From an uncultured Gallionellaceae bacterium (GTDB lineage: Bacteria > Pseudomonadota > Gammaproteobacteria > Burkholderiales > Gallionellaceae): a stretch of DNA of 43,329 bases. This document shows, piece by piece, positions 267 through 37,651 of this stretch. A model generated the notes under the pieces. That model had not been told where the DNA came from, ran no database searches, and worked only from the letters and a program-made list of their open reading frames with translations. Made by a program: the position numbers and the translations under genes. Position 1 is the stretch's first letter, and each line of letters begins with the position of its first letter. The stretch spans positions 1 through 43,329 of the forward strand of contig CAIWKC010000060.1 in NCBI GenBank assembly GCA_903913145.1, read 5' to 3'.

Positions 267-1148
267 ATGGGAACAGTATACAGTGTGATGGTCACAGGTG
301 TATTCATGGCCGCACTGGGCGGCTTGTTGGCGCTATTTCTAGCTATTGCCAATAAACGACTCTACGTTTACGAAGATCCACGCATCGAACAAGTCGAAGA
401 ATTACTACCTCATTCCAACTGTGGCGCTTGTGGCACGGCTGGCTGCCGTAATTTTGCCGAGCAAACTGTCGAAGGCAAAATTGATCCGGCTTGTTGCACT
501 GTCAATACATCCGAACAAAACAAAGGTATCGCAGCGTTACTTGGCGTTGCGATGGGTAATGTTGAAAAGCGGATAGCGAGATTGGCTTGTGCAGGTGGCA
601 ATCATGTTGCCAAGATGCGCGCGAATTATTCAGGACTTTCATCATGTCGCGCGGCGGCGGTTTCTGGTGGCGGTGGTAAAGGTTGTGCGTGGGGTTGCCT
701 AGGTTTGGGCGACTGTGCAGATGTATGTGATTTTAATGCTATAAAAATGGACAGCCACGGTTTGCCCATCGTAGACAGTACTAAATGTACTGCATGCGGA
801 GACTGTGTTGATATTTGCCCCAAGCATTTATTTTCTATTCAGGGTGTATCGCGCCAACTTTGGTTGGCTTGTCAAAACGAGTCAGATCCGGACGCAGCAG
901 AAGCCGTGTGCGAAGTTGCCTGCACCGCGTGTGGACGTTGCGTCATGGATGGCGCAGATGGCTTGATTCACCTGGAACGCAATCTTGTTGTTATTGATTA
1001 TGAGAAGAACGCCAGCGCAAATCGTCATGTAATAGAGCGATGCCCTACAGGCGCGATTGTATGGTTTGAAGGCGACCGAATCATTAAAGGCAAGTCAGCT
1101 AAAAAAATAATCCGTATCGAACCGTTACCTGCAACTGCTGAAGCATAG
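267..1148 (+). CDS. rnfB: Electron transport complex subunit RnfB (long, multi-cluster form)
   Basis: N-terminal TM, CGACGTAGC...C Fe-S motif, then CxxxCx5CxxxC, CTACGDCVDIC and a further C-terminal Cys-rich segment; first gene of an rnf operon; RBS gggggag upstream. Confidence 0.93.
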   Translation: MGTVYSVMVTGVFMAALGGLLALFLAIANKRLYVYEDPRIEQVEELLPHSNCGACGTAGCRNFAEQTVEGKIDPACCTVNTSEQNKGIAALLGVAMGNVEKRIARLACAGGNHVAKMRANYSGLSSCRAAAVSGGGGKGCAWGCLGLGDCADVCDFNAIKMDSHGLPIVDSTKCTACGDCVDICPKHLFSIQGVSRQLWLACQNESDPDAAEAVCEVACTACGRCVMDGADGLIHLERNLVVIDYEKNASANRHVIERCPTGAIVWFEGDRIIKGKSAKKIIRIEPLPATAEA

Positions 1149-1156
1149 GGGGAATT

Positions 1157-4100
1157 ATGTTGAATAAACTCAAGCAATTTAAATTGATCGGTGCTGCAGT
1201 TGACACCGAAGGAAGCAAGACAAAATATAAATATCCGGGTGTGAGAGACGCCATTGATGGCAACACAGCCGTTATTTTGGTGGAACGCGAAGCCTCGCAA
1301 GGAGCGGGGGCTTATCCGATTACTCCTTCGACACAAATGGGCGAATACTGGGCGGAAGAAGTCGCCAAGGGGCATCTTAATGCGGCAGGAAAGCCGCTCA
1401 TATTCATCGAGCCTGAATCTGAACATGCAGCGGCAGGCGTGACCGCAGGCCTTTCAATGACCGGGTTGCGCGCAGTAAACTTTACCTCGTCGCAAGGCTT
1501 GGCGTTCATGCATGAGTCGCTTTACGCCGCTGTCGGTAAACGTTTGCCTTATGTGTTGAATCTGGGCTGTCGTGCAATTACAAAAGCATCGTTGAACGTG
1601 CATTGCGCACATGACGATTACCATTGCGCTGATGACACTGGCTTTATTCAGGTCATGGCTAAAAATGCACAGGAAGCAGCCGATCTCAATATGATCGGAC
1701 GTAAAACTGCCGAGCTTTCACTCACGCCTGCTATTGTGGCGCAAGATGGTTTTTTGACCACGCACTTGATTGAACCCATGCTGGTACCGGAAAGAGAGTT
1801 GATCGCCGAGTATTTAGGTGATGGTGATGACATTATCGACACGCCTACGCCTGCCCAGCAAATGCTTTACGGACCGAAACGTCGCAGAATTCCATCAATC
1901 TGGGATGTTGATAATCCAATGATGACCGGCGGAGTCGCCAATCAGGATGTTTATATGCAAGCAGTTGCAGCCCAGCGTCCGTATTTCTTCAATCATATTT
2001 CTGCACTGTTCGATCAGTCGGCTGATGAATTTCAAAAATTGACAGGTCGCCGATATAACCGCATCGATGCCTATCGCTGTGATGATGCAGACTACATTAT
2101 TCTTGGCCAAGGCAGTATGACGGTACAAGCCGCAGCAGTTGCAGACTGGCTGCGCGACAATCGCAAAGTCAAAGTGGGCGTAGTCAACATCACGATGTTT
2201 CGCCCATTCCCCGGAGACATGCTGGGTAAAGTTCTCAAAGGCAAGAAAGGTGTTGCCGTGCTGGAACGTACCGATCAGCCCTTGTCGGAAGACTTGCCGT
2301 TGATGCGCGAGGTTCGTTCCACAATTACAAAATGCGTAGAGAATGCACGCGAAAATTCGTACCCAGATTATGCTTCTTACGACACAGCCAAAGAAATGCC
2401 GTCGCTATATTCCGGCTGTTATGGTTTAGGCTCGCGTGACCTGCAACCTGAAGGTTTGATCGCTGCTGTAGAGAATATGTTGCCAGGTGCGGCACATCGC
2501 AAGTTCTATTATTTGTCTGTGGATTTTGTGCGCGATGAATCGGCTAATCCGAAACAGGAAATTCGCCAGCAGGAATTGCAAGCCGCCTATCCGGGCATCA
2601 AAAATTTGGCACTGCGCGGTTCGGAGAATCCAAACCTGTTACCCAAAAATGCCATTGCTGTGCGCATGCACTCCATTGGAGGCTGGGGAGCAGTGACTAC
2701 CGGAAAAAATCTGGCAATGACGCTGTTTGAATTGCTGGGTTGGGATATCAAGGCAAACCCCAAATATGGCTCCGAGAAGAAAGGTCAACCGACAACTTAT
2801 TATCTGTCGGCTGCGCCGGAACCCATTCGCATCAACTGTGAATATACCAATGTAGATGTAGTGCTGTCACCTGACCCGCAAGTATTCTTGCATACCAATG
2901 CACTTGAAGGGATGAGATCAGGCGGTGTATTCATCATTCAAAGCAATTTGGCGAGTGCGGAAGCAGTATGGGAAACTTTCCCGATGCGCACACAGCAATT
3001 TATTGTGGATAAGAAGATTCGTGTTTTCTATCTGGATGCGTTCAAGATCGCACGAGAAGAATCCAGCAATTCTGACTTGCAATTACGTATGCAAGGCAAT
3101 GCATTCCAAGGGGCTTTCTTCCATGCTTCCGATGTGAAAGAGCGCGCAGGATTGAGTGAAGAAACTTTGTTTACTGCCATTGAAAATCAACTTGAATCCA
3201 AGTTCGGCAGCAAGGGCAAACGCATCGTTGAAGATAACCTGCGTGTGGTGCGTCGTGGTTATGAAGAAATATTTGAAATCAATTCTGCGCAGATGAAAAT
3301 CGGTCAACGCGCCAAGGCCGTCGGCAAGGTGGCTCCAGCGTTGCCTATCATGCTGAGTCGCTTACCTGAAGGGGATGGCGGCATCTCTGACATACACCGT
3401 TTCTGGGAACAAACGGGTAGTTTTTATATGAAGGGCCAAGGTTCGGATAATTTGGTCGATCCTTTTATGGGGCTTTCGGTTATTCCAGCGATTACGGGTG
3501 TGTATCGCGACATGACCGGCGTTCGGTTTGAGCATCCGGAATGGAAAGCTGAAAACTGTACTGCCTGCGGTGAATGCTTTACGCAATGTCCTGACAGCGC
3601 GATTCCGGGACTGGTTTCTACCACAACCGATGTGCTCAACTCCGCTATCCAAAAGATTGAAATCGGTGGACGCCCAACTCGCTTCCTGCGAAAAATTAGC
3701 CGCGTCATTGACAAAAAATTACGCACTGTTCTGGACAAAGAAGGTCTCGATGTAAGCGCATTGTTGTTAAATGCAATTACTGAAGCTTTCGTTGAAGATC
3801 CGACTCAGGGTGATGAGCGTGCCAGATTAGAAATCGAATTGAACCTGTTGCGTGAAATGATCGGCGGTTTTAAGTTCGCCACGACCAAGCCCTACTGGAA
3901 TCAGAAAGAGAAAAAAGAAAAAGGTGCGGGAGGATTGTTTTCTATCACCATCAATCCTTATACCTGCAAAGGCTGTGCAATCTGCGTGGAGGTATGTGAC
4001 GACAATGCTTTAGTCATGGTGACACAGACTCAAGACAGCATACAAACATTGCGTGATGATTGGAACTTCTGGCTAGAACTGCCAACCACGCCTGCGCAAT

Positions 4101-6067
4101 ACAGTCGTATCGATGATCTGGATGAAAAAGTAGGTGCACTGGAAACATTGTTGCTGGATAAACACAATTATATGTCTATGTCCAGCGGCGATGGCGCTTG
4201 TCTGGGTTGTGGTGAAAAATCGACCATACACTTGTTCACCAGTACGGTTACAGCACTACTACAGCCACGTGTTAAGAAATTTCTGGCCAAGCTGGATAGC
4301 TTGATCGGTGATTTGGAAAATCATATTCGTATGAAGCTCAGCAGTACAGTTGATCTCACGAACACCCAAGCATTGATGCAAGCGATTCAGACTTACAGCG
4401 GGCGAGATTTGACGCTTGCCAATCTGTCTGAAAGTTTGTTGGCTAAACATCCTGGACAGCCGATTGATCCGCAATGGCTGAAACGTGTCACGCAAATGTT
4501 GGAAAAACTGAAAGACTTGCGTTGGCGCTACATGGAAGGTCCGAGCAAAAATGGTCGTGCTGAAATGGGTGTTGTAAATTCCACCGGATGTACCTCGGTT
4601 TGGGCTTCTACTTTCCCGTTTAATCCTTATCCGTTTCCCTGGACTTCGCATTTGTTCCAGGATTCACCCTCGGTTGCGATGGGCGTATTTGAAGGCCATA
4701 TGGCGAAAATGGTAGAAGGCTTCAAGACCGTGCGCCAAGCCGAGATGGAACTTGCAGGTGGCTACGATCCCGAAGAAAGCGGTAAATTCTTTTCGCACTT
4801 TAACTGGGAGCAACTCAGTGATGAAGAGTGGCATCTGTGTCCACCCGTGGTAGCAATGGGCGGTGACGGTGCGATGTTCGACATCGGTTTTCAAAATCTG
4901 TCGCGAGCCCTGATGTCAGGTAAGCCGATCAAAATTATGATCGTAGATACACAAGTGTATTCAAATACCGGTGGTCAAGCTTGTACTTCAGGCTTTATTG
5001 GCCAAGTGGCAGATATGTCACCGTACGGCGCAAGCAAGCAGGGCAAAACCGAGAGCCGTAAAGAAATCAGTATTATTGGCATGGCTCACCGTACTTCTTA
5101 CGTGATGCAAGGCGCATTATCCAACGTCACTCATTTGCTGGAAAGTTTTATTGACGGATTGAACAGTCGCCGTCCGGCATTGTTTAACGTCTATGCGGTT
5201 TGTCCGCCAGAGCACGGTGTGGGTGACGACAGCGCAGTGGCACAAAGCAAAATGGCGGTTGAATCACGTGCTTTCCCGCTGTTCCGTTATAACCCTGATT
5301 TGGGCGTCACTTTTTCAGAGTGCGCTTCGCTCGAAGGTAATCCCGGAATAGATACCGACTGGGTGACTTATTCCCTCGATTATCTTGATGAACACGGGGA
5401 AATGAAGAAAATGTCTTTGCCCATGACCTTTGCCGATTTCGCATTGAGTGAAGGTCGCTTTGCCAAGCAGTTCAAAAAGGCTCCTCCGGAAACCTGGAAC
5501 GACGACATGGTGTTGCTGGGAGATTTTCTGAAACTTTCAGAAGTTGATCGAGAAGGAAAGTTCCCCTTTATCTGGTCGGTAGACAAGAAGAATCGTTTGA
5601 TTCGTGTAATGGTATCCGCTGAATTGGTTCGTTCATGCGAAGAAAGATTGCAATTCTGGCAACAACTTAAAGATGTAACAGGTGTTAGCCGTCCGATTGT
5701 AAATGAGGAAGCAATAGCTACTCGCGTTCGCCAAGAGTTGATTCAGAAACTCTCAACCGGTTTTGGAATTAGCTCAACTGATGCACCTCAACCGGCACCT
5801 GTTGCGGTAACAGATGGATATGAACAAGTATGGGTTGACTCTCCTGAATGCACGGCATGTGATGAATGTATCAATATCAATCCCAAGATATTCGCCTACA
5901 ACGATGCAAAGAAGGTCATCATTGTTAATCCGAAGGCAGGATCTTATGTTGATATCGTCAAGGCGGCTGAGAAATGTACCGCTGCTGTAATTCATCCAGG
6001 AACGCCTTGGAACATGAACGAAGCTAATCTGGACAAGCTCAAGCAACGCGCGGCCAAGTTCAATTGA
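1157..6067 (+). CDS. nifJ: Large fused pyruvate:ferredoxin (2-oxoacid) oxidoreductase with C-terminal single-cluster ferredoxin domain
   Basis: 1636 aa; YPITPSTQMGE domain I, gamma domain, CTACGECFTQCP and CKGCAICVEVC 2x[4Fe-4S], GDGACLGCGEKS and GDGAMFDIG...VYSNTGGQ TPP domain, C-terminal CTACDECININP...AAEKCTA ferredoxin-like tail. Exact substrate not provable from sequence. Confidence 0.88.
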   Translation: MLNKLKQFKLIGAAVDTEGSKTKYKYPGVRDAIDGNTAVILVEREASQGAGAYPITPSTQMGEYWAEEVAKGHLNAAGKPLIFIEPESEHAAAGVTAGLSMTGLRAVNFTSSQGLAFMHESLYAAVGKRLPYVLNLGCRAITKASLNVHCAHDDYHCADDTGFIQVMAKNAQEAADLNMIGRKTAELSLTPAIVAQDGFLTTHLIEPMLVPERELIAEYLGDGDDIIDTPTPAQQMLYGPKRRRIPSIWDVDNPMMTGGVANQDVYMQAVAAQRPYFFNHISALFDQSADEFQKLTGRRYNRIDAYRCDDADYIILGQGSMTVQAAAVADWLRDNRKVKVGVVNITMFRPFPGDMLGKVLKGKKGVAVLERTDQPLSEDLPLMREVRSTITKCVENARENSYPDYASYDTAKEMPSLYSGCYGLGSRDLQPEGLIAAVENMLPGAAHRKFYYLSVDFVRDESANPKQEIRQQELQAAYPGIKNLALRGSENPNLLPKNAIAVRMHSIGGWGAVTTGKNLAMTLFELLGWDIKANPKYGSEKKGQPTTYYLSAAPEPIRINCEYTNVDVVLSPDPQVFLHTNALEGMRSGGVFIIQSNLASAEAVWETFPMRTQQFIVDKKIRVFYLDAFKIAREESSNSDLQLRMQGNAFQGAFFHASDVKERAGLSEETLFTAIENQLESKFGSKGKRIVEDNLRVVRRGYEEIFEINSAQMKIGQRAKAVGKVAPALPIMLSRLPEGDGGISDIHRFWEQTGSFYMKGQGSDNLVDPFMGLSVIPAITGVYRDMTGVRFEHPEWKAENCTACGECFTQCPDSAIPGLVSTTTDVLNSAIQKIEIGGRPTRFLRKISRVIDKKLRTVLDKEGLDVSALLLNAITEAFVEDPTQGDERARLEIELNLLREMIGGFKFATTKPYWNQKEKKEKGAGGLFSITINPYTCKGCAICVEVCDDNALVMVTQTQDSIQTLRDDWNFWLELPTTPAQYSRIDDLDEKVGALETLLLDKHNYMSMSSGDGACLGCGEKSTIHLFTSTVTALLQPRVKKFLAKLDSLIGDLENHIRMKLSSTVDLTNTQALMQAIQTYSGRDLTLANLSESLLAKHPGQPIDPQWLKRVTQMLEKLKDLRWRYMEGPSKNGRAEMGVVNSTGCTSVWASTFPFNPYPFPWTSHLFQDSPSVAMGVFEGHMAKMVEGFKTVRQAEMELAGGYDPEESGKFFSHFNWEQLSDEEWHLCPPVVAMGGDGAMFDIGFQNLSRALMSGKPIKIMIVDTQVYSNTGGQACTSGFIGQVADMSPYGASKQGKTESRKEISIIGMAHRTSYVMQGALSNVTHLLESFIDGLNSRRPALFNVYAVCPPEHGVGDDSAVAQSKMAVESRAFPLFRYNPDLGVTFSECASLEGNPGIDTDWVTYSLDYLDEHGEMKKMSLPMTFADFALSEGRFAKQFKKAPPETWNDDMVLLGDFLKLSEVDREGKFPFIWSVDKKNRLIRVMVSAELVRSCEERLQFWQQLKDVTGVSRPIVNEEAIATRVRQELIQKLSTGFGISSTDAPQPAPVAVTDGYEQVWVDSPECTACDECININPKIFAYNDAKKVIIVNPKAGSYVDIVKAAEKCTAAVIHPGTPWNMNEANLDKLKQRAAKFN

Positions 6068-6069
6068 AT

Positions 6070-7410
6070 ATGCGACTTCCATCTTTCCTGCAGCGCACGG
6101 CGACTTTCGATCACGGCATACATCCGGTCTATCACAAAGAAACTGGCTGCTTGCCGATTCGAAGGTTTCCCTATGCCCCAAAATTATTTGTACCGCTGTC
6201 GCAGCACATTGGCAAACCGGCAATCGCGGCAGTAAAAGTTGGACAAGAAGTGTTGCGTGGGGAAATCATTGCGACGGCTGATGGCTTTCTTTCCTTGCCA
6301 ATACATGCACCAGCCACAGGAGTAGTGGAAGCTATTTCACCGATTGCTTCCGATAGCGGCAAAATGGAAATGGCGATCACGATCCGAGTTTATGAAGCCG
6401 ACAGTCAAGAAATAAAAGTAAGAAATCCGCACGAATTGGAAGGATTGAAAGGCAAAGATTTAGCGTTGATCATGCAAGAAGTTGGAGTGGCAGGGAAGGG
6501 GGGGGCGGTTTTTCCTACTCATGCCAAGTTGGTTCCTCCATCTGGTGCTGTCATCGACACCTTATTGGTGAATGGCGCTGAGTGCGAACCCTTTCTCACT
6601 TGCGATCATCGCATTATGCTTGAGCGAGCTCATGACGTGTTGACCGGCATTAAATATGCACGGCGCGTATGTGGAGCTCCAAGAGCCATCATAGGCATTG
6701 AAGATAACAAACCGGATGCGATTGCTGCATTGCAAGCAGCACTGCCTGACGATGGCACTGTATCAATCAAAGTGCTTGAAACAAAGTATCCGCAGGGTGC
6801 GGCAGAGACGATGACTTATGCCATTCTGGGGCGAGAAGTGCCGGTTGGCAAACGCAGTTCGGCCATTGGCGTGATCATGAATAATGTGATGACGCTGGCT
6901 TATATGGGCAGGTTATTGCCCTTGGGCGAAGGTATGACTGAGCGAGTTGTTACAATTGCCGGTCCCGCTGTGGCAAGACCCGGAAACTATATCGTACCCT
7001 TGGGTACCCCTTTGCGTTTTCTACTCGAGTGGGTTGGAGCAAGGAGCAATGCCAGTGAAGTGATTCTGGGCGGACCGATGATGGGCGCGGCGGTTTCTTC
7101 GCTCGATGTGCCGATTACCAAAGGAGTGTGCGGTGTGCTGGCGTTTGGCAAGACAGAAGTCGAGCCGCAACGCAGTTATCCATGCATTCATTGCGGGGAG
7201 TGCCTGAGCGCCTGCCCGAAAAAATTGAATCCCACGCAAATGGGATTGCTTGCTGCCAAACGTGAATTTGAAGTAATGGCAGACCGTTTTTCGCTTGGCG
7301 AATGTTTTGAATGCGGTTGTTGCAGCTATGTGTGTCCCTCGCATATTCCCCTGGTGCAACAATTTCGTATCGCCAAGTCCTTTCTTAAAGATAAGGCGCG
7401 TTCAGCATGA
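6070..7410 (+). CDS. rnfC: Electron transport complex subunit RnfC
   Basis: GKGGAVFPTHAKL nucleotide-binding motif, CIHCGECLSACP and CFECGCCSYVCP clusters. The track start at 6064 is TTG; ATG at 6070 is equally plausible. Confidence 0.93.
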   Translation: MRLPSFLQRTATFDHGIHPVYHKETGCLPIRRFPYAPKLFVPLSQHIGKPAIAAVKVGQEVLRGEIIATADGFLSLPIHAPATGVVEAISPIASDSGKMEMAITIRVYEADSQEIKVRNPHELEGLKGKDLALIMQEVGVAGKGGAVFPTHAKLVPPSGAVIDTLLVNGAECEPFLTCDHRIMLERAHDVLTGIKYARRVCGAPRAIIGIEDNKPDAIAALQAALPDDGTVSIKVLETKYPQGAAETMTYAILGREVPVGKRSSAIGVIMNNVMTLAYMGRLLPLGEGMTERVVTIAGPAVARPGNYIVPLGTPLRFLLEWVGARSNASEVILGGPMMGAAVSSLDVPITKGVCGVLAFGKTEVEPQRSYPCIHCGECLSACPKKLNPTQMGLLAAKREFEVMADRFSLGECFECGCCSYVCPSHIPLVQQFRIAKSFLKDKARSA

Positions 7411-8447
7411 CTCAACCCATCGAGTTGCGTGCCGCGCCTCACCAGCATAGTGGTCGGGATGTGCCGACTATTATGCGCAATGTTGTTTACTCAATGTTGC
7501 CGATTTGTGTTTTTTCAATTTGGCAATATGGGCTTTCATCTGCGGCATTGATATTTGTCGTTACGCTTTCTTGTTTAGCGGCAGAACGTATCAATAATCA
7601 CTTTTCGGGTTCGGTCAACACGCTGTCGGACTGGAGCGCGGCGATTACCGGCATTATTTTGGCGCTTACCTTACCTCCGGCATTTCCGCTTTGGATGGGT
7701 GCAGTGGCAGGGTTCTCAGCGATCTGGCTGGGAAAATCAATATTCGGCGGATTGGGACAAAATCCGTTTAATCCGGCATTGATCGGACGAGCATTTGTAC
7801 AGGCTGCTTTCCCGACGGCGATCAGTACTTGGGCACCTGCTTTTGCACCGCATCGATTCAGTGAATTTATTCCATCATCGCTTGCCGCGCCCTTTATGTC
7901 CCCGCCTGACATTGTGCTGTGGGCCAAACAGCAGGGAGTAGATGCATTTACCGGAGCAACCCCTTTGGCACGCTGGAAATTTGAAAACATCTCAGCCTCA
8001 TCCATGGATTTGTTGACCGGCAATGTCACGGCTAGCGCGGGTGAGACTTCCGCTATTTTGATTTTGCTTTGTGGTCTATATTTGGCATTCAGAAAGTTTT
8101 TGGACTGGCGCATTCCGGTTGCTGTTTTGGGCAGCGTCGTGCTGGTGGCTTGGGTGTTTCATTTTGCCCAACCGGCGCGCTACCCCACACCTACTTTTGT
8201 ATTGCTCTCCGGTGGATTGATGCTGGGTGCATGGTTCATGGCAACTGATATGGCTACCTCACCTGTGACGCCACGCGGTATTTGGTTGTATGGTGCGCTG
8301 ATCGGCATACTCACCGTGGTGATCCGCTATTTTGGGGGCCTGACTGAAGGTGTGATGTACGCGATTTTGATTGCAAATGCGGCAGCGCCATTGCTGGATC
8401 AATTTAGCCAGCCGCGTGTGTTCGGCAATGAACGGGATAAGTCATGA
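7407..8447 (+). CDS. rnfD: Electron transport complex subunit RnfD
   Basis: Multi-TM protein with flavinylation motif TGATPL; 4-nt ATGA overlap with rnfC. Confidence 0.93.
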   Translation: MTQPIELRAAPHQHSGRDVPTIMRNVVYSMLPICVFSIWQYGLSSAALIFVVTLSCLAAERINNHFSGSVNTLSDWSAAITGIILALTLPPAFPLWMGAVAGFSAIWLGKSIFGGLGQNPFNPALIGRAFVQAAFPTAISTWAPAFAPHRFSEFIPSSLAAPFMSPPDIVLWAKQQGVDAFTGATPLARWKFENISASSMDLLTGNVTASAGETSAILILLCGLYLAFRKFLDWRIPVAVLGSVVLVAWVFHFAQPARYPTPTFVLLSGGLMLGAWFMATDMATSPVTPRGIWLYGALIGILTVVIRYFGGLTEGVMYAILIANAAAPLLDQFSQPRVFGNERDKS

Positions 8448-9127
8448 GTGATACACCGAAGACAATAACGCCAAGTTTTGCGATGGTGCGTACGTTGGGA
8501 CTGGTATCGGTCATTTGTGGCATCATCATCGTGGGAGTTTATCAAATCACGTTGCCTGCGGTTAATGCGAATAAGAAGCTTGCGCTGGAACGCCAAGTGT
8601 TTAAAGTCCTACCGAATGCCAAGAAGGTAGTCACCTATTACGCTACGCCAACCGGAATTGTGATCGCTGAAGGTCAAGATCAACCACCTGCACAAGCCAT
8701 GGTTTTCTATGCGGTGTACGACAATAGTAATAAGCTGGCAGGCATCGCGGCAGAAGCATCTTCCGCCGGCTATGCCGATCAAGTGCGTGTGCTTTATGCT
8801 TACGATATCGCGAAACAGGCTATCACCGGTATTGGTGTGGTCTCCATGCGTGAGACCCCCGGCATTGGGGACAAGATTCTGACCGACGAAGATTTTCTGC
8901 GTAACTTTACTGCCCTTGATGTGCGATTGTCGGCGGATATGCAAGCTTTGGCTAATGCAGTGAAGACCGTGAAGCATGGCACGAAAACGAATCCGTGGCA
9001 GATTGACGCCATCGCAGGTGCAACAGTGACATCTAAAGCGGTTGGGCGTGGTATCAATGAATCCGCACAGACATTGATTCCAAGACTTTTACCCCATCTT
9101 GAAAAACTAACGGGAGTGACACCATGA
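8444..9127 (+). CDS. rnfG: Electron transport complex subunit RnfG
   Basis: N-terminal TM and covalent FMN motif AGATVTS; ATGA overlap with rnfD. Confidence 0.93.
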   Translation: MSDTPKTITPSFAMVRTLGLVSVICGIIIVGVYQITLPAVNANKKLALERQVFKVLPNAKKVVTYYATPTGIVIAEGQDQPPAQAMVFYAVYDNSNKLAGIAAEASSAGYADQVRVLYAYDIAKQAITGIGVVSMRETPGIGDKILTDEDFLRNFTALDVRLSADMQALANAVKTVKHGTKTNPWQIDAIAGATVTSKAVGRGINESAQTLIPRLLPHLEKLTGVTP

Positions 9128-9759
9128 GCGTACCATCCAATTTCGATGAATTTTTGGACGGTATCTGGAAACAGAATCCGATCTTCGTGATGGTATTGGG
9201 TATGTGCCCGACGCTCGCAGTGACAGTGTCAGCGGTAAATTCAATTTCGATGGGTCTGGCAACCACCTTTGTGTTGGCAGCATCCTGCCTTTTGGTCTCT
9301 ATTTTGCGAAGTGCGATCCCAAAACAAGTTCGCATCGCCAGTTATATCGTCATTATCGCCACCTTCGTTACCGTGGTGGATTATGCGATCCAGGCGATTA
9401 GCCTTGATCTATATGAAGCACTGGGTGCCTATATCAAACTGATCGTGGCCAACTGTATTTTGCTCGGGCGTGCAGAAGCTCATGCCGCAAAAAATCCTCC
9501 CTTGCCCGCGACTTTAAACGCATTTGGGATGGGTCTTGGCTTTACTCTGGGCTTATTGGCGATAGGCAGTGTTCGTGAAGTTTTGGGTGCGGGAAAGTTG
9601 TTCGGTTTGTCATTGTTTGGCCCACATTTCCAGCCTTGGGTCGTGATGGTGTTACCACCGGGTGGATTCTTTGTTCTGGCAGCATGGCTGATCGTATTTG
9701 CCGCCTTCCGGCATATCAATATTAAACGCAATACTCAATTGGGGGGTGTTCAGTCATGA
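9124..9759 (+). CDS. rnfE: Electron transport complex subunit RnfE
   Basis: RnfE/NqrD family: GMCPTLAVT and ANCILLGRAEA Cys motifs, six hydrophobic segments; ATGA overlap with rnfG. Confidence 0.93.
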   Translation: MSVPSNFDEFLDGIWKQNPIFVMVLGMCPTLAVTVSAVNSISMGLATTFVLAASCLLVSILRSAIPKQVRIASYIVIIATFVTVVDYAIQAISLDLYEALGAYIKLIVANCILLGRAEAHAAKNPPLPATLNAFGMGLGFTLGLLAIGSVREVLGAGKLFGLSLFGPHFQPWVVMVLPPGGFFVLAAWLIVFAAFRHINIKRNTQLGGVQS

Positions 9760-10343
9760 ACAACGATACCGTCGCCAATATTCTCTTAACCACCATTCTG
9801 CCGGGAAACTTTGTATTGGCGATGTTCCTTGGCATGTGTCCATTCCTGGGTGTGTCTCAAAAGCTCAGCACTGCCGTGCCAATGGGTATTGCAACCGCTT
9901 TTGTGATTTTGGTGGCTTCGCTGTCAGCTTATTTTTTGAACATGCTGTTGGTGCATTTTCATCTGGAATTTTTGAGCGTGATCACCTTTATCACGGTTAT
10001 TGCCTGCGCTGTGCAATTGGTCGAAATGTTTGTAAAAAAGACCTTTCCGGAATTGTTTCGGCAACTGGGTATTTACCTGCCGCTCATTACGACAAACTGT
10101 GCTGTGCTCGGCGTAGCCTTATTTCAAACAGCGCGTCAGTATAATTTCGTGCAATCACTGGCCTATAGCATCGGTGGTGGTATAGGATTCACGCTTGCAC
10201 TGATATTGATGGCCGGACTGAGGGAGCGTATGCAACTTTCCAATGTGCCCACGCTGGTACAGGGTGCTGCGATTAGTGTGGTATTGGGAGGTTTGTTGTC
10301 GCTGTCGTTTATGGGTTTTGCAGGCATCGGAGGTGGAGAATGA
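9756..10343 (+). CDS. rnfA: Electron transport complex subunit RnfA
   Basis: RnfA/NqrE family: GMCPFLGVS and LITTNCAVLGVAL motifs; ATGA overlap with rnfE. Confidence 0.93.
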   Translation: MNNDTVANILLTTILPGNFVLAMFLGMCPFLGVSQKLSTAVPMGIATAFVILVASLSAYFLNMLLVHFHLEFLSVITFITVIACAVQLVEMFVKKTFPELFRQLGIYLPLITTNCAVLGVALFQTARQYNFVQSLAYSIGGGIGFTLALILMAGLRERMQLSNVPTLVQGAAISVVLGGLLSLSFMGFAGIGGGE

Positions 10344-10513
10344 ACTATCTGGTTACTATTGGACTGTTACTGGTATTGTTGGTTGGCTGGGTAATAGTAG
10401 AACAATTAGCATTCATTTTTGCGCATCGACATCCGGAATTCGGTCCGCCGCGAAAATTGGGTTGTGGCGGTTGTGGAAATAATTGCGAAGGCCAATGCAA
10501 AAACGAGCATTAA
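10340..10513 (+). CDS. 57-aa single-TM protein with C-terminal CxxCxxxCxxxC (NqrM-like architecture); absent from the supplied ORF track
   Basis: ATGA overlap with the rnfA stop; translation MNYLVTIGLLLVLLVGWVIVEQLAFIFAHRHPEFGPPRKLGCGGCGNNCEGQCKNEH*. Confidence 0.8.
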   Translation: MNYLVTIGLLLVLLVGWVIVEQLAFIFAHRHPEFGPPRKLGCGGCGNNCEGQCKNEH

Positions 10514-10593: not shown

Positions 10594-12963
10594 ATGCAAC
10601 CTTATGTTATTCCATTCCAGTCTCTGGGTATCACTGACATTCCAGAGGTAGGCGGAAAAAATGCTTCACTCGGCGAAATGATTTCCAACCTGAGTTCCTC
10701 CGGGGTGAACGTACCGGGTGGCTTTGCCACAACAGCGCAGGCTTACCGGGATTTTTTGGCTGAAGACGGTCTGGACAAACGCATTGAGGATGCTGTATCA
10801 ACACTTAATGTGGATGACGTTGTCGCTTTGGCAGAAGCAGGCCGCAAAATTCGCGGCTGGATCGTCGATGCTCCGTTACCCAAGCGACTTGAATCTGAAA
10901 TTCGCGAACATTACACTAAATTGGCCGCTGAAGGAGAAGGAAGCTTCGCGGTACGTTCTTCAGCCACAGCGGAAGATTTGCCGGATGCTTCATTTGCCGG
11001 TCAGCAAGAAACTTTTTTAAACATTCACGGCATTGATCATATTTTGCATGCCATTCGTGAAGTGTTTGCCTCACTGTATAACGACCGTGCAATCTCTTAC
11101 CGTGTCCATAAAGATTTTACCCATGCCGATGTTGCGCTTTCTGCTGGCGTACAACGCATGGTACGTTCTGATCTGGGTGCTTCCGGTGTGATGTTCACCC
11201 TGGATACAGAGTCCGGTTTCCGTGATGCCGTATTCATAACCTCATCCTACGGCTTGGGTGAAATGGTGGTGCAGGGTGCTGTTAATCCAGATGAGTTTTA
11301 CGTACATAAACAACAACTCGCGGCAGGTTTCCCTGCTGTTATTCGTCGCAGTTTAGGTTCCAAACAACAGCAGATGGTTTTCGACGTGCAACGTTCTGCG
11401 GGTCGCTCTACGCGCATCGAGCCGGTACCGGCTGCCGATCAATCCCGATTTTCATTGAACGATGAGGATGTGTTGCAATTGGCTCGTTATGCTGTCTCCA
11501 TTGAAAAGCATTATGGTCGTCCGATGGACATCGAATGGGGTAAAGACGGCAATGATGGCAAGTTGTACATTTTGCAAGCACGTCCTGAAACAGTTAAATC
11601 AAATGCCTCCAGTGGCGCCACTGAAAAATATCGCCTGCAGCAACGCGGAGTTGTATTGGTTGAAGGCCGGGCTATCGGGCAAAAGATAGGCACCGGACGT
11701 GTGCGCATCGTCGACAGTACAGCTGATATGGACAAAGTACAAGCTGGGGATGTGCTGGTCACGGATATGACTGATCCGAATTGGGAACCCGTGATGAAGC
11801 GGGCTGCAGCCATTATTACCAATCGCGGTGGACGCACTTGTCATGCTGCAATCATCGCACGTGAATTGGGCATTCCTGCCATTGTCGGTTGTGGACACGC
11901 CACTTCAGCATTGCAAGAAGGTGAAACTGTCACGGCTTCATGTGCTGAAGGGGATACCGGTTATGTTTACCACGGAAGCTTGCCTTTTGAGATCGTAGTC
12001 AATAGCGAAGATGCTTTACCAGCGATCCCGGTAAAGCTCATGTTGAATGTGGGCAATCCAACGCTGGCATTCGAGTTTGCGCAACTGCCTTCCGCAGGTG
12101 TAGGTTTGGCTCGTCTCGAATTCATCATCAATAATCTGATTGGCATCCATCCGAAAGCGGTGCTTGAATACAATAAACTACCAAGCAAATTGCATGACGC
12201 TGTGGCACGTCGCTCAGCAGGATATTCCGACCCTGTCGAGTTCTATGTTGAGAAAATTGTTGAAGGTGTTTCTACACTCGCTGCTGCATTCTGGCCTAAA
12301 CCCGTGATCGTGCGTTTGTCAGACTTCAAGTCGAACGAATACCGCAAGCTGTTAGGCGGCGAAATCTACGAGCCGATGGAAGAAAACCCCATGATCGGTT
12401 TCCGTGGAGCCGGTCGTTACGTCGCGCCTAATTTCAGCGATTGCTTTGAGTTGGAATGCCGCGCGATGAAACGCGTGCGTGAAAAACTGGGATACACTAA
12501 CGTTGAGTTGATGATCCCCTTTGTGCGAACAGTGCAAGAAGCCCGAGAAGTGGTGACCACTTTAGAACAACACGGCTTGAAGCGCGGACAGAACGGATTG
12601 CGTCTCATCATGATGTGCGAGATCCCATCCAACGCATTGTTAGCCGAAGACTTCCTGCAATTTTTTGACGGCTTCTCTATTGGTTCCAATGATTTAACTC
12701 AGCTTACGCTAGGACTGGATCGTGATTCCAGTTTGGTGGCCGATCGTTTTGATGAACGTGACCCGGCGGTTAAGGCGTTATTGACAATGGCGATTACGAC
12801 CTGCAACCGTCTTAATAAATACGTCGGTATTTGCGGCCAGGGGCCTTCAGACCATTTTGACTTTGCCCAATGGTTGATGGATATTGGTATCCAAACCATG
12901 TCACTTAATCCTGACACCGTTGTTGATACTTGGCGCAAGTTAGCTCAGCGCAATAAGCCTTGA
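10594..12963 (+). CDS. ppsA: Phosphoenolpyruvate synthase
   Basis: 789 aa; [12 protein letters not shown]-terminus, [21 protein letters not shown] phosphohistidine loop, C-terminal [16 protein letters not shown] and CGQGPSD; RBS caggag. Confidence 0.95.
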
Positions 12964-16214: not shown

Positions 16215-16624
16215 TTGTTGCTCCATTTATTTGAGTTGCACAAAAGTCACTTAATGTGCGTTCGCTATTGTGACTTCTGCAAATTACAAAGTAGTTAAGG
16301 AGCAAAATACATGCCTCGAAACCAAAATGACACTTGAATTATCTTTAATTTGGCTGATTGTTCAATGGAAAGACCACATTACAACACAAAAGTTCCATTC
16401 ACTCGCTGCCGCGTAAACAAATCCAGCCCTGTTTTATTTTGATCTATTTTTTAACAAGCCGGCTAGGCAGCTTGCGCTTTAACGAAAAGGAAAGGTTGAT
16501 TGCATAGTTACTGTGAGGACAGAAATAACCCGCTTTTATGCCTTTATTCGAGCCTTATCTTAAATTGCAAACTGCTACCTTAGCGTCAAGCCAGCGTCTT
16601 GGTTTTAACGCAAATGAGGTTTTT

Positions 16625-19405
16625 ATGCCAGCCCAAAAGAAAATTCGTTTAGTAACCGATGAAAATCGTTCTGAAACTGAGGCCATCCAGGAAACACGCA
16701 GTCGAATGGAGGCAGAAATTGAGGTGCAATTAGCAGCTCAAGCTCGAACGCGTGCTGAGGCGCATGCCCGCGCAATTGCCAATGGCAAGGTGAGACAAGA
16801 AAACGAATTGGCTGAACAAATTGAATTACGTAGCCGGTCCGAGACTCAGTTGGTTGATGAAGTAAAGATGCGTTTAAAACTGGAACGAGAACTTACAGAA
16901 TCTGCCAGTGAAAAATTAATTGCTGAAAAGCTTTTGACGGACGCTGTTGAAATTAAACTTGCCGCAGAAAGGCAGGCACAGGCAGAACTTACACAACGTC
17001 TGGCTGAAGAAAAACACTTGAGTGGCGTAATAGAAGAACGAGCCAATTTGGATCGTGAGATTGCACTAGTAGCCCAGCAAAAAGCCCTCAACGAAACTCA
17101 ACTTGCAAAAATCTCACAAGAAAAACTTAAAGCTGAAAAGGAAGTATTGGCACTTGTTAATGCAAAACTGACCGCTGAAATGGCTGCGATGGAAGCCAAT
17201 CAATCGCGTTCACGTGCTGAGACGATCGCATTATCCGAAACTCAGGCTCGTGTATCAGCGGCAATTGAAGCAGAACGCACAGAAGTCGCAAGAGCGGAAG
17301 CAGAACGTAAAATCACTGAAACCTTTGAATTACGTGCACGGGTCGAACAACAAGCGCAGGCCGAAGCAAGTGCACGTGTAGCTGCAGAATTGCAATTGGT
17401 AGAATTTGGGAAAATTACCGCGCAGAAAGAACAGGAAAGCCGCATCGCGGCAGAACGCAAATTGCAAGCAGAGCAGGACATGCTTTCACTGCTGAATGCG
17501 CAGGTCGAACTGGAGCAACAAGCCGTAAAAGAACGTGAGGCTGGAAATCTGTTGCTGAAACAAGCCGAGCTTCATGCACGTGATCACCTAGCTGCGGAAT
17601 TGCAGGCTAAGCAAGCTACAGAAGCCAAAATTCAAGCCGAGCGAGATTTGACCGATGCTGCACGAGCTCGTGCAGAAGCAGAAATGCGTGCTGCGCGCGC
17701 GATTGAAATGCAACTAAAAGCAGAGGCAGCGGCAATAGATGCTGCCCAAAAGCAGGCTGAAGTTGCAATGTGTGCCAAGCAATTGGCTGAAGAAAATGCA
17801 GCCATGAATGAACAGTTGCTTAAGGTTGAACAATTGCCTGCCCAGGCCGCGGCAATGGCCAATAAAGAATTAAAAAAGAAATTGGAAGCGATTAATGAGC
17901 GTATCGCATTAGCCAATGAGCGCACTAGTTTAATGGTTGCAGAGTTTATGGCTGAAGCAGAAAGATTGGAAGCAGATCGCGAAGTGGTCACTGCAATCCG
18001 ACAACGTGTCGAAACTGAACAATCTGCCGCAGAGGCGAAGCAAAAACGAATTGCTTTGGAAGCGGATGCCGAACGCGTGTCTAAAGAACAAATTGCAATT
18101 GAGAATAAAACAGTCGCAGAGATTACTTTGCGCATGGATACCGAATTGCGTGCCATTGATGCGGACAACAAACGGATTGCGTTGGAGGTGCGCGCTCAAG
18201 AGGCAGCTGCTGCAAGCTTGGTGGCTGCCGAAGCAGCAATTGCTGTGGCCAAATCGAGAGAAGATTATGAAATGCGTGCATTGAACATGACCAAAATGCG
18301 CACTGAAACTGAAGCTCGTGCAGCCAAAGCTGCCGAGGAAGCTCTGCTGGCAGAATCTCGCGCAACGGTGTTTGCACGCCAACGTATTGAGGCGGCAAAT
18401 CAGGCGGCAACCAAGGCTACTGAAGAAATTAAGATTGCAGAATCTCGCGCAACGGCACTTGTTCGAGATCGTATCGAGGCGGCAAATCAGGAGGCCGCCA
18501 AGGCTGTAGAAGAAATTAAGATTGCAGAATCTCGTGCAACGGCACTTGTTCGCGATCGTATCGAGGCGGCGAATCAGGCCGCAGCCAAGGCTGCTAAGGA
18601 AGCAAAAGTTGCCGAGTCGCACGCAATGGCACTTGCGCTTGAACGTATTGAGGTTGCAAATCAAACTGTAGCCAAGGCCGTTGATGAAGCAAAGGCTGCA
18701 GAATCGCGCGCAACTGCACTCGCGAATCAACGTATTGAGGTGGCTAACCAGGCTGAAGAATTGGCAAGTGCCCGTGAAAAAGACGAGTATCTTCACCTTG
18801 AATTGGAACAACAAAAATTGCGTGAAGAGTCACGAGCAAGGGAAATTGTGGCTGAGCGGCTTGAAATGGAACGTCGCACTGCAAATGAGATTGAGGCGCG
18901 CATCGCCCTGGAATTACAAACAATAGAAGCAGTCCGCAAAATGGAAATGGCCGAAGTGCTGGCAAAAGATGCTGCCAGTGAAAAACTTTTAGCGCATGAA
19001 CAAACTGCAAATGCGATGCTCGCTCGCGAAGAACTTGACCGCCAATTGACTGCGGTAGAACGCCAAGAGTTCGAGCGCATCAATACGGAACTTGAAACAG
19101 GTAAGTTGATGAGCAAGTTGCGCAGAACAAGTATTATCAGCAAAATATCCCAAGTCGCCTTGGTTGCAACACTGGTATTTAGCTTGAGTTACATGTTTTT
19201 AGAAGGTCACTCAGTTGCGCACCCTGGCATTGAAACAAATGCCACAGAAGCAAAAATAAACACAGCAGAGCCTGTAGTCGCCGAAGCGACGATAGTCAAT
19301 ACACCAGTCGCGGAACCTATTGTTCTGGCAAGTTTTAAAATGGCAACAGAAATAAGCAGCTTTCAATTAACCGGGCAACCGTCTGAAAAAATATCAAGCA
19401 ACTAA
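16625..19405 (+). CDS. Very long Ala/Glu-rich coiled-coil protein with near C-terminal transmembrane segment
   Basis: Track ORF 16538-19405; the internal ATG at 16625 has GAGG at RBS distance. Long charged helical heptads, TM KISQVALVATLVFSLSYMFLEGH near the C-terminus and a polar tail. Confidence 0.8.
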   Translation: MPAQKKIRLVTDENRSETEAIQETRSRMEAEIEVQLAAQARTRAEAHARAIANGKVRQENELAEQIELRSRSETQLVDEVKMRLKLERELTESASEKLIAEKLLTDAVEIKLAAERQAQAELTQRLAEEKHLSGVIEERANLDREIALVAQQKALNETQLAKISQEKLKAEKEVLALVNAKLTAEMAAMEANQSRSRAETIALSETQARVSAAIEAERTEVARAEAERKITETFELRARVEQQAQAEASARVAAELQLVEFGKITAQKEQESRIAAERKLQAEQDMLSLLNAQVELEQQAVKEREAGNLLLKQAELHARDHLAAELQAKQATEAKIQAERDLTDAARARAEAEMRAARAIEMQLKAEAAAIDAAQKQAEVAMCAKQLAEENAAMNEQLLKVEQLPAQAAAMANKELKKKLEAINERIALANERTSLMVAEFMAEAERLEADREVVTAIRQRVETEQSAAEAKQKRIALEADAERVSKEQIAIENKTVAEITLRMDTELRAIDADNKRIALEVRAQEAAAASLVAAEAAIAVAKSREDYEMRALNMTKMRTETEARAAKAAEEALLAESRATVFARQRIEAANQAATKATEEIKIAESRATALVRDRIEAANQEAAKAVEEIKIAESRATALVRDRIEAANQAAAKAAKEAKVAESHAMALALERIEVANQTVAKAVDEAKAAESRATALANQRIEVANQAEELASAREKDEYLHLELEQQKLREESRAREIVAERLEMERRTANEIEARIALELQTIEAVRKMEMAEVLAKDAASEKLLAHEQTANAMLAREELDRQLTAVERQEFERINTELETGKLMSKLRRTSIISKISQVALVATLVFSLSYMFLEGHSVAHPGIETNATEAKINTAEPVVAEATIVNTPVAEPIVLASFKMATEISSFQLTGQPSEKISSN
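18341..18775 (+). repeat. Five tandem 87-bp (29-aa) repeats inside the coiled-coil gene
   Basis: Units at 18341, 18428, 18515, 18602 and 18689; consensus (I/A)K(I/V)AESRATALVRDRIEAANQAAAKAxEE. Units 2 and 3 are nearly identical. Confidence 0.9.
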
Positions 19406-36317: not shown

Positions 36318-37651
36318 CAGTAGTGTCCGGTTAACTTACATATTTCCGAGCCAAGAATGAGTATTGGCGCGGGTTACAGAACAATTTATTTTGGTGCCGA
36401 TTTGAAATCAGTTTACCCATATTCAAGTTCAAGTAACGTCCAGAGATTGATTTCTCTGGAGGTGAGCTATGAACATGGGCAAGACGTTGTTCGCGCAGAT
36501 CATGGGGTTTGTTCCATGGACCAGTTTTGCGCGCATCGTGACACGCTATGGCGGCGATACCAGAGTGCGCAGCTTGGCTTGCACCGAGCAATTCCGCGCC
36601 ATGGCCTTCGCGCAATTGACCTACCGAGAGAGTCTGCGCGACTTCGAAACCTGCTTGTTGGCAAATCAGGCGAAGCTTTACAGCATGGGATTTCGTACTC
36701 CGGTAAAACGGTCGACGCTGGCCGATGCAAACGAAGGACGCGACTGGCACATTTGGGCCGACTTGGCTGTTTTGCTTATCCGACGTGCGCGCAAGCTGTA
36801 CTGCAACGACAGCTTTGGTGTCGATCTCGACAATACCGTCTACGCGCTGGATGCGACGACCATAGACTTGTGTCTTTCGCTGTTTCCATGGGCGCCGTTT
36901 CGCACCGCCAAAGCAGCGGTCAAATTGCATACGCTGCTCGACCTGCGCGGCAATATTCCAGCCTTCATTCATATCTCGGACGGCAAGACACACGAGGTCA
37001 ACGTGCTGGATATGCTGTCCTTCGAGGCAGGTGCCTTCTACGTAATGGATCGAGGGTATCTGAATTTCGCTCGTCTGTTTGCATTGCATCAGACTGGAGC
37101 ATTCTTTGTGACCCGTGCCAAGCACGGTATGAATGCTCGCAGGGTGTACTCGATGCCAGTCGACCGGAGTACCGGCATCATTTGCGACCAGCGCATCGTG
37201 CTGAATGGTTTTTACATCGCGCAGGATTATCCCGAGCAGTTGAGGCGCATTCGCTTCAAAGACCCGGTGTCCGGCAAGACGTTGGTATTCCTGACCAACA
37301 ACACCGCGTTGCCTGCGCTGACGATTGCTGCTCTTTACAAGAGCCGCTGGCAAGTCGAGTTGTTCTTCAAATGGATAAAGCAGCACCTGCGTATCAAGCG
37401 TTTCATCGGCAACAGCGAGAACGCGGTGAAAACGCAAATCTGGTGCGCTGTCTCCACTTACGTACTGATCGCTATTATCAAAAAGGAGCTTCAACTTGAT
37501 GCCTCTCTATACTCTTTGCTACAGATTTTATCGGTGTCTGTTTTTGAGAAAACCCAGTTATCTCAAGCCCTCGCGGGCAATGGGCAATTCCAAGATCAGA
37601 CAGACATTTCTAACCAACTAAATTTGTTCGACTTTTAACCGGACACTACTG
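36318..37651 (+). mobile_element. Complete IS4-family insertion sequence, 1334 bp
   Basis: Perfect 17-bp terminal inverted repeats CAGTAGTGTCCGGTTAA (36318-36334) / TTAACCGGACACTACTG (37635-37651); 9-bp direct repeats AGATTATGT at 36309-36317 and 37652-37660. Confidence 0.95.
36469..37638 (+). CDS. IS4-family DDE transposase
   Basis: YALDATTIDL (first D), VMDRGYLNFARL (second D), YKSRWQVELFFKWIK = Y-x2-R-x3-E-x6-K signature; stop codon lies inside the right inverted repeat. Confidence 0.93.
   Translation: MNMGKTLFAQIMGFVPWTSFARIVTRYGGDTRVRSLACTEQFRAMAFAQLTYRESLRDFETCLLANQAKLYSMGFRTPVKRSTLADANEGRDWHIWADLAVLLIRRARKLYCNDSFGVDLDNTVYALDATTIDLCLSLFPWAPFRTAKAAVKLHTLLDLRGNIPAFIHISDGKTHEVNVLDMLSFEAGAFYVMDRGYLNFARLFALHQTGAFFVTRAKHGMNARRVYSMPVDRSTGIICDQRIVLNGFYIAQDYPEQLRRIRFKDPVSGKTLVFLTNNTALPALTIAALYKSRWQVELFFKWIKQHLRIKRFIGNSENAVKTQIWCAVSTYVLIAIIKKELQLDASLYSLLQILSVSVFEKTQLSQALAGNGQFQDQTDISNQLNLFDF

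Follow-up and report, generated by a model that had tools for sequence, protein, structure and literature searches.

What is a gene for a pyruvate:ferredoxin oxidoreductase (PFOR)-like enzyme doing in the middle of an rnf operon, given that Rnf is usually seen as a general-purpose link at which soluble ferredoxin and NADH exchange electrons? The DNA analysed here (the window) is contig C60, 43,329 nt, of the 3.6-Mb draft genome of an uncultured Gallionellaceae bacterium. Its PFOR-like gene, hereafter POR, lies in an operon with the order rnfB–POR–rnfC–rnfD–rnfG–rnfE–rnfA, followed by a small open reading frame (ORF) of 57 aa. POR is spaced 8 nt from rnfB and 2 nt from rnfC, and each junction from rnfC/rnfD through rnfA/small ORF is a 4-nt ATGA overlap. 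The ATG of rnfC is at 6070, 2 bases past the end of POR; a TTG in frame with it, at 6064, would overlap POR. A preliminary description of the window had reported these seven genes in this order, with ATGA overlaps from rnfC onward, and both points are borne out by the coordinates and family assignments. The span that it gave, 267-10513, does cover the rnf and POR genes, but 10513 is the stop of the 57-aa ORF and not that of rnfA.

The preliminary description had also proposed a neighbourhood search for rnfB-POR-rnfC synteny, with uniqueness to this genome as the outcome that would speak against a PFOR-Rnf partnership; the search instead found the arrangement conserved across families. In 80 loci from a scan of genome contigs, a long rnfB stands right before POR in 80/80 and rnfC follows wherever the contig continues. 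Further loci from class- and phylum-level searches brought the total to ~100. Among these, rnfB lies no more than 200 nt upstream of POR in 93 of the 95 measurable loci (and at 212 nt in one more), and rnfC is the next rnf gene downstream in 91 of 92, within 300 nt in 83. The carriers, iron- and sulfur-oxidising bacteria and their relatives, belong to at least ten beta- and gammaproteobacterial families, including Gallionellaceae, Thiobacillaceae, Hydrogenophilaceae, Rhodocyclaceae, Sterolibacteriaceae, Methylophilaceae, Comamonadaceae (Rhodoferax), Thiotrichaceae, Sedimenticolaceae and Ectothiorhodospiraceae. The nearest relative in the named collection, an uncultured Gallionellaceae bacterium, is 94% identical across POR. 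Since the junction recurs so widely, an arrangement unique to the window or produced by chance or by misassembly is ruled out. Experiments are possible because several named isolates have the operon (Rhodocyclus tenuis, Rhodoferax antarcticus, Sulfurisoma sediminicola, Novimethylophilus kurashikiensis and Thiothrix caldifontis).

Within Gallionellaceae, POR is present in 41 of 158 genomes. RnfD matches in this family fall into two classes, 66-100% and at most 41% identity, with a wide gap between them. The high-identity, POR-type RnfD occurs in 39/41 POR-positive genomes, the two exceptions ending at contig breaks, and in 0/117 POR-negative genomes. These counts, taken over genomes that are not independent because the operon is inherited as a unit, show that POR and POR-type Rnf travel together. 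Where loci of the low-identity class were read, they proved to be canonical rnf operons (A-B-C-D-G-E, short RnfB, no POR), which rules out that every Gallionellaceae rnf operon carries POR. One canonical rnf operon is found on contig C51 of the window genome.

The six subunits RnfA, B, C, D, G and E encoded in the window operon are those of an Rnf complex, whose expected reaction is ferredoxin:NAD+ oxidoreduction coupled to ion transport. RnfC (464 bits), RnfD (301 bits) and RnfE score above their family cut-offs, RnfA (226.8 vs 229.3) and RnfG (90.8 vs 102) fall slightly under, and the long RnfB is under its family cut-offs, with PRK07118-type models as best matches. Flavinylation-type and intramembrane 2Fe-2S Cys motifs (TGATPL, AGATVT, LGMCP, NC) can be read from the translations. 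The window thus shares six subunits, domain content and flavinylation-type motifs with the known Rnf complexes of Acetobacterium woodii and Clostridium tetanomorphum and with Azotobacter vinelandii Rnf1, but differs in having POR between rnfB and rnfC, a long RnfB, rnfA last, an additional Cys-rich small membrane protein and a clade of its own. It likewise departs from the canonical proteobacterial operon, with its A-B-C-D-G-E order and RnfB of ~180 aa. In both RnfC and RnfD trees, POR-Rnf, canonical Rnf and a sister type described below (KOR-Rnf) form three separate clades, with support for the POR group of at least 100/96.

Aligned over most of its length, RnfB of the window shares only 21-25% identity with canonical RnfB from other Gallionellaceae rnf operons. 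It has an N-terminal transmembrane (TM) helix, an FeS domain, two 4Fe-4S motifs at ~aa 140-187, further conserved Cys at aa 202-259 and a conserved basic C-terminal tail. This tail is comparable to that of A. woodii RnfB, a proposed ferredoxin 'fishing hook' (PMC11889175). The quality of an AlphaFold2 (AF2) model of RnfB (pLDDT 54) was too low for use. At the other end of the operon, rnfE/rnfA (9124-10513, compared with L040, L041 and L079) are 84-88% identical to Methylophilaceae and ~66-77% to several other Gallionellaceae, whereas POR is closer to Gallionellaceae than to Methylophilaceae. These opposite affinities suggest that the 3' half of the window operon may have been exchanged.

POR itself has the standard PFOR domains (POR_N, PFOR_II, POR gamma and thiamine pyrophosphate (TPP) domains), which place it in the PFOR superfamily, but its TIGR02176 score is 403 bits, where the equivalog cut-off is 911. 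Because this score is so far under the cut-off, POR is, by sequence, a distinct POR subfamily rather than a standard NifJ, and the fused PFOR-like (nifJ) gene of the preliminary description holds at the superfamily level only. POR aligns at low identity with the solved Moorella and Desulfovibrio PFORs; the solved sequences closest to it are pyruvate enzymes. It shares with the PFORs of Desulfovibrio africanus (1b0p) and Moorella thermoacetica (6cin) the domain order, TPP site, catalytic residues and medial/distal and proximal [4Fe-4S] sites, but it is longer (1636 vs ~1170-1230 aa) and carries two insertions, its tethered ferredoxin adds a fourth [4Fe-4S] site, its equivalog score is low and its gene is linked to rnf. 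One insertion, helical, occupies ~aa 1020-1130 inside the proximal-cluster/TPP span. We counted residue conservation over 94 sequences (the window POR and its relatives), using residues that we take to be equivalent to those of Desulfovibrio PFOR from motif alignment and established knowledge of PFORs. The catalytic Thr and Arg and the TPP-binding Asp/Asn have equivalents in 94/94 and one Glu in 93/94, and all 12 Cys of the three internal [4Fe-4S] clusters are invariant in 94/94.

POR ends in a ferredoxin domain. All four of its cluster Cys are present in 92/94 sequences, the remaining two being truncated by contig ends, so that every complete member has the domain. An AF2 model of POR residues 437-1636, of moderate confidence (pLDDT 65), was used solely for the boundary between linker and ferredoxin and contains a folded terminal domain beyond a disordered linker; its Foldseek E-values match PFORs and its global TM-score is low. 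The fused domain has its nearest solved relatives among ferredoxin I and II entries (1dax, 1f2g; E 3e-5 for ferredoxin I), and ferredoxins of the I/II kind pair with Desulfovibrio PFOR. Two kinds of POR relatives lack the ferredoxin, a two-gene split form and a fused form of ~1690 aa, and at none of the loci examined did either lie next to rnf. The fused ferredoxin and linkage to rnf occur together. The ~1690-aa form (L176, L179-L185, L201-L203, all of one family) is a single open frame ~40% identical to POR. The tree of the POR N-domain could not be rooted, and catalytically dead PORs sit on very long branches in it.

These dead PORs belong to the sister operon, found at ten loci (L146-L153, L160 and L161) in other gammaproteobacterial genomes. 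KOR-Rnf operons have the order korA-korB-~840-aa protein-rnfB-POR homologue-(sucC-sucD in several)-rnfC-D-G-E-A, and the ~840-aa protein ends in a ferredoxin of the same type, with the Cys pattern confirmed in 8/10 loci. The POR homologue is ~30% identical to POR and stays between rnfB and rnfC, where it has the equivalents of T56, D1242, N1270 and the four proximal-cluster Cys in 0/9 sequences and the eight Cys of the other two (distal) clusters in 9/9. Catalysis in KOR-Rnf has thus apparently passed to KorAB, with the dead POR scaffold apparently kept merely as an electron conduit. Of all the evidence, the retention of a dead POR between rnfB and rnfC argues most strongly that the POR scaffold does more at Rnf than supply free reduced ferredoxin. 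Both operon types are present in four genomes (G324, G375, G500, G507). By gene content, KOR-Rnf reads as an arm resembling the reductive tricarboxylic acid (rTCA) cycle wired to Rnf, and at L152 NuoF-like and TfrA/FrdA-like genes lie upstream of it.

Comparative genomics gives strong support to the proposal in the preliminary description that this Rnf has PFOR as its dedicated partner, namely through conserved synteny, matching presence and absence, a separate Rnf clade and the fused ferredoxin; the description's interpretation as a whole, which extended to docking, is supported in part. It had overlooked the fused ferredoxin, the long RnfB, the small Cys-rich ORF, the KOR-Rnf operon and the canonical rnf operon and pyruvate dehydrogenase found elsewhere in the window genome. 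We think it probable that POR and Rnf form a dedicated module in which electrons run from POR through the tethered ferredoxin and the long RnfB into Rnf, making an ion-motive-force-coupled pyruvate:NAD+ oxidoreductase. In this module, POR would interconvert pyruvate and CoA with acetyl-CoA and CO2 on TPP, and electrons would pass its three internal [4Fe-4S] clusters to the ferredoxin at its C-terminus. The tethered ferredoxin would exchange them directly with RnfB, replacing soluble ferredoxin or acting alongside it, and Rnf would couple this exchange both to NAD(H), at RnfC, and to the movement of ions over the membrane. If the published Rnf path applies (PMC11889175, PMC12174285), the route would be POR clusters, tethered ferredoxin, RnfB, RnfA/E, RnfG/D, RnfC and NAD+, or the reverse.

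Run oxidatively, the module could be an energy-conserving alternative to pyruvate dehydrogenase; run reductively, NADH and the ion gradient could drive pyruvate synthesis, perhaps supplying the phosphoenolpyruvate (PEP) synthase encoded next to it in Gallionellaceae. Judged by textbook potentials, ion export could be paid for by oxidising pyruvate with NAD+, and making pyruvate from NADH would need the ion gradient. The adjacency of ppsA favours synthesis, and with a pyruvate dehydrogenase encoded in the same genome there is less need for a role confined to catabolism, although neither point is decisive. Physical docking of POR on Rnf is plausible, given that POR has a tethered ferredoxin and that the sister operon keeps a homologue with a dead active site. 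It is also possible, with doubt slightly prevailing, that POR belongs, as a stable subunit, to a specialised Rnf acting as a membrane-bound, ion-motive pyruvate dehydrogenase/synthase, with the ferredoxin swinging between POR and RnfB, and that the sister form combines catalytic KorAB with dead POR as a wiring scaffold.

Several observations weigh against a dedicated pyruvate module. It is not the sole pyruvate route, as the window genome encodes a pyruvate dehydrogenase E1 (contig C96) and aceE is present in 157/158 Gallionellaceae genomes, the window genome included, which rules out POR as the only pyruvate oxidiser. Pyruvate is assigned as substrate by residue conservation, with the NCBIfam pyruvate equivalog cut-off not reached. 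At one locus of POR-Rnf type, L126, there is upstream room but no rnfB within ~1.4 kb, with rnfC and rnfD following normally. The ferredoxin domain is only mildly acidic (isoelectric point 6.75 in the window, family mean 5.7) and could equally serve soluble partners. Synteny, moreover, can stem from co-regulation alone: POR and Rnf might share an operon simply to meet a low-oxygen need while being linked via ordinary soluble ferredoxin, as used by canonical PFOR and Rnf (PMC12174285). All the data are genomic, and gaps of tens to hundreds of nt flank POR in many loci, so that operon control could suffice and a strict complex would be unneeded. Co-expression alone nevertheless appears unlikely, as it sits poorly with a ferredoxin fused in every complete member, with the absence of rnf beside ferredoxin-less relatives and with a single gene order held over ~ten families, and it would leave the dead POR between rnfB and rnfC with no role.

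The two other alternatives concern what the module is for. The low TIGR02176 score, the two large insertions and the low identity to known PFORs might reflect a 2-oxoacid substrate other than pyruvate, with the same coupling to Rnf; yet the equivalents of the pyruvate-binding Thr/Arg and of the TPP residues are universal in the family, the nearest solved sequences are pyruvate enzymes and ppsA adjoins the operon in Gallionellaceae, and we therefore consider another substrate quite improbable. A further idea is that POR and Rnf poise the reduced-ferredoxin pool for N2 fixation, much as NifJ supplies reduced ferredoxin to nitrogenase in some enterobacteria. In Gallionellaceae nifH does correlate with POR (31/41 POR-positive vs 14/117 POR-negative genomes), which also counts against the pyruvate module, but this correlation is confounded by genus, one genus holding most of both. 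Ten POR-positive genomes lack nifH, including three at 99-100% completeness and that of the window, where none was found in the genome and no nif genes lie within the window. Several genomes have a separate canonical rnf operon within 7-18 kb of nifH, indicating that nitrogenase has its own Rnf. Nitrogenase supply is the least likely explanation, very improbable and rated as a minor contributor.

Published accounts come close to this arrangement at a few points. According to the available text on Endoriftia, the Riftia symbiont, rTCA genes cluster with Hdr-Flx, pntAB and Rnf, and expression of a 'dimeric OGOR korAB' drops together with that of a 'PFOR-like' gene (PMC11636981). By description alone this cluster resembles the KOR-Rnf operon in its korA-korB and POR-like protein, and that text does not mention POR inside rnf, active-site loss or a fused ferredoxin. 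In what is available of a study of Gallionellaceae iron oxidisers, Rnf clusters are widespread, their function beyond nitrogen fixation is left open and no link to POR is drawn (PMC10734462); the accessible part of another treats Gallionellaceae PFOR separately, sometimes next to hox genes (PMC10734482). No description of rnfB-POR-rnfC was found in the literature searched, which included few subscription papers; this is weak evidence that the module, a combination of two known machines, was previously undescribed. If our interpretation is correct, a conserved Rnf equipped with a 2-oxoacid oxidoreductase and a tethered ferredoxin of its own would act as an ion-coupled pyruvate:NAD+ enzyme (2-oxoglutarate:NAD+ in the sister form), and could explain low-potential carboxylations in microaerobic lithotrophs of the Calvin-Benson-Bassham or rTCA type without an oxygen-exposed pool of free ferredoxin. 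It would also give a function to the Gallionellaceae Rnf clusters whose role the available text of PMC10734462 leaves open. The dead POR offers a direct test case for electron transfer through the POR scaffold to Rnf.

Table 1. Features of the POR-Rnf operon and the adjoining ppsA, in window coordinates.
Feature	Position	Strand	Remarks
rnfB	267..1148	+	long type, 293 aa; translation and family assignment
POR	1157..6067	+	1636 aa, uninterrupted; pyruvate:ferredoxin oxidoreductase-like
POR [4Fe-4S] site 1 (Cys801, 804, 807, 811)	3557..3589	+	94/94 active, 9/9 catalytically dead homologues
Insertion between two internal 4Fe-4S motifs (approximate)	3614..3946	+	absent from classic NifJ; alignment to Moorella/Desulfovibrio PFOR
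POR [4Fe-4S] site 2 (Cys937, 940, 943, 947)	3965..3997	+	94/94 active, 9/9 dead homologues
Proximal [4Fe-4S] ligands (Cys1015, 1018, 1145, 1349) and TPP motif (Asp1237, Asp1242, Asn1270)	4199..5203	+	
Ala/Pro/Ser-rich linker	5729..5818	+	low-confidence, probably flexible in AF2 model
C-terminal single-cluster ferredoxin (Cys1565, 1568, 1571, 1607)	5819..6064	+	fused to POR
rnfC	6070..7410	+	NADH/FMN and 4Fe-4S subunit
rnfD	7407..8447	+	TGAT flavinylation-type motif
rnfG	8444..9127	+	FMN_bind domain, AGATVT motif
rnfE	9124..9759	+	family assignment
rnfA	9756..10343	+	family assignment
Small ORF, 57 aa	10340..10513	+	one TM helix, HPEFGPPR motif, CGGCGNNCEGQC tail
ppsA, PEP synthase	10594..12963	+	family assignment

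Counterparts of the small ORF follow rnfA in most POR-Rnf operons and in 7/8 KOR-Rnf operons (L147-L151, L160, L161) and are absent from canonical rnf. Members of this family have one TM helix, a Cys-rich tail and often an R-H/N-P-E/Q-x-GP motif. By analogy with NqrM, the product is possibly an assembly factor for the intramembrane 2Fe-2S cluster. An identification as NqrM itself was rejected for want of Pfam support: PF04400 matched none of 11 members, even at a permissive E-value, and the likeness is confined to the plan (one TM helix and Cys tail, at the operon end). A PF04400 search of the window genome was uninformative, as no control gave a match.

Other genes adjoin the operon in parts of its range. 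An FNR-like (NAD_binding_1) gene follows rnfA in 14 loci (L053, L058, L061, L063, L065-L067, L069, L072, L074, L078, L081, L082, L084), whose carriers include Rhodocyclaceae, Rhodoferax, Thiothrix and Sedimenticola. A gene named thiol-peroxidase-like from its sequence lies between POR and rnfC in Sedimenticola (L081, ~6970-7530), and POR-rnfC gaps of similar size occur in L075, L082 and L084. Such neighbours would be fitting for low-potential, oxygen-sensitive redox work. A divergent gene, assigned to the LysR type by its sequence and a possible regulator of the operon, adjoins it upstream of rnfB in 16 loci, including L012, L014, L016, L019, L022 and L024. Promoter matches were no better than chance. 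In the window ppsA starts 80 nt 3' of the operon, a position it holds in many Gallionellaceae and from which it is absent in most other lineages.

The window genome also encodes RuBisCO and, on contig C259, a conventional split porABC-like set. Elsewhere in the window, a 955-aa ORF at 16538-19405 matched nothing in Pfam, with E values of up to 5 allowed, and an insertion sequence on the same contig carries a DDE transposase gene (DUF4372/DDE_Tnp_1) at 36469-37638.

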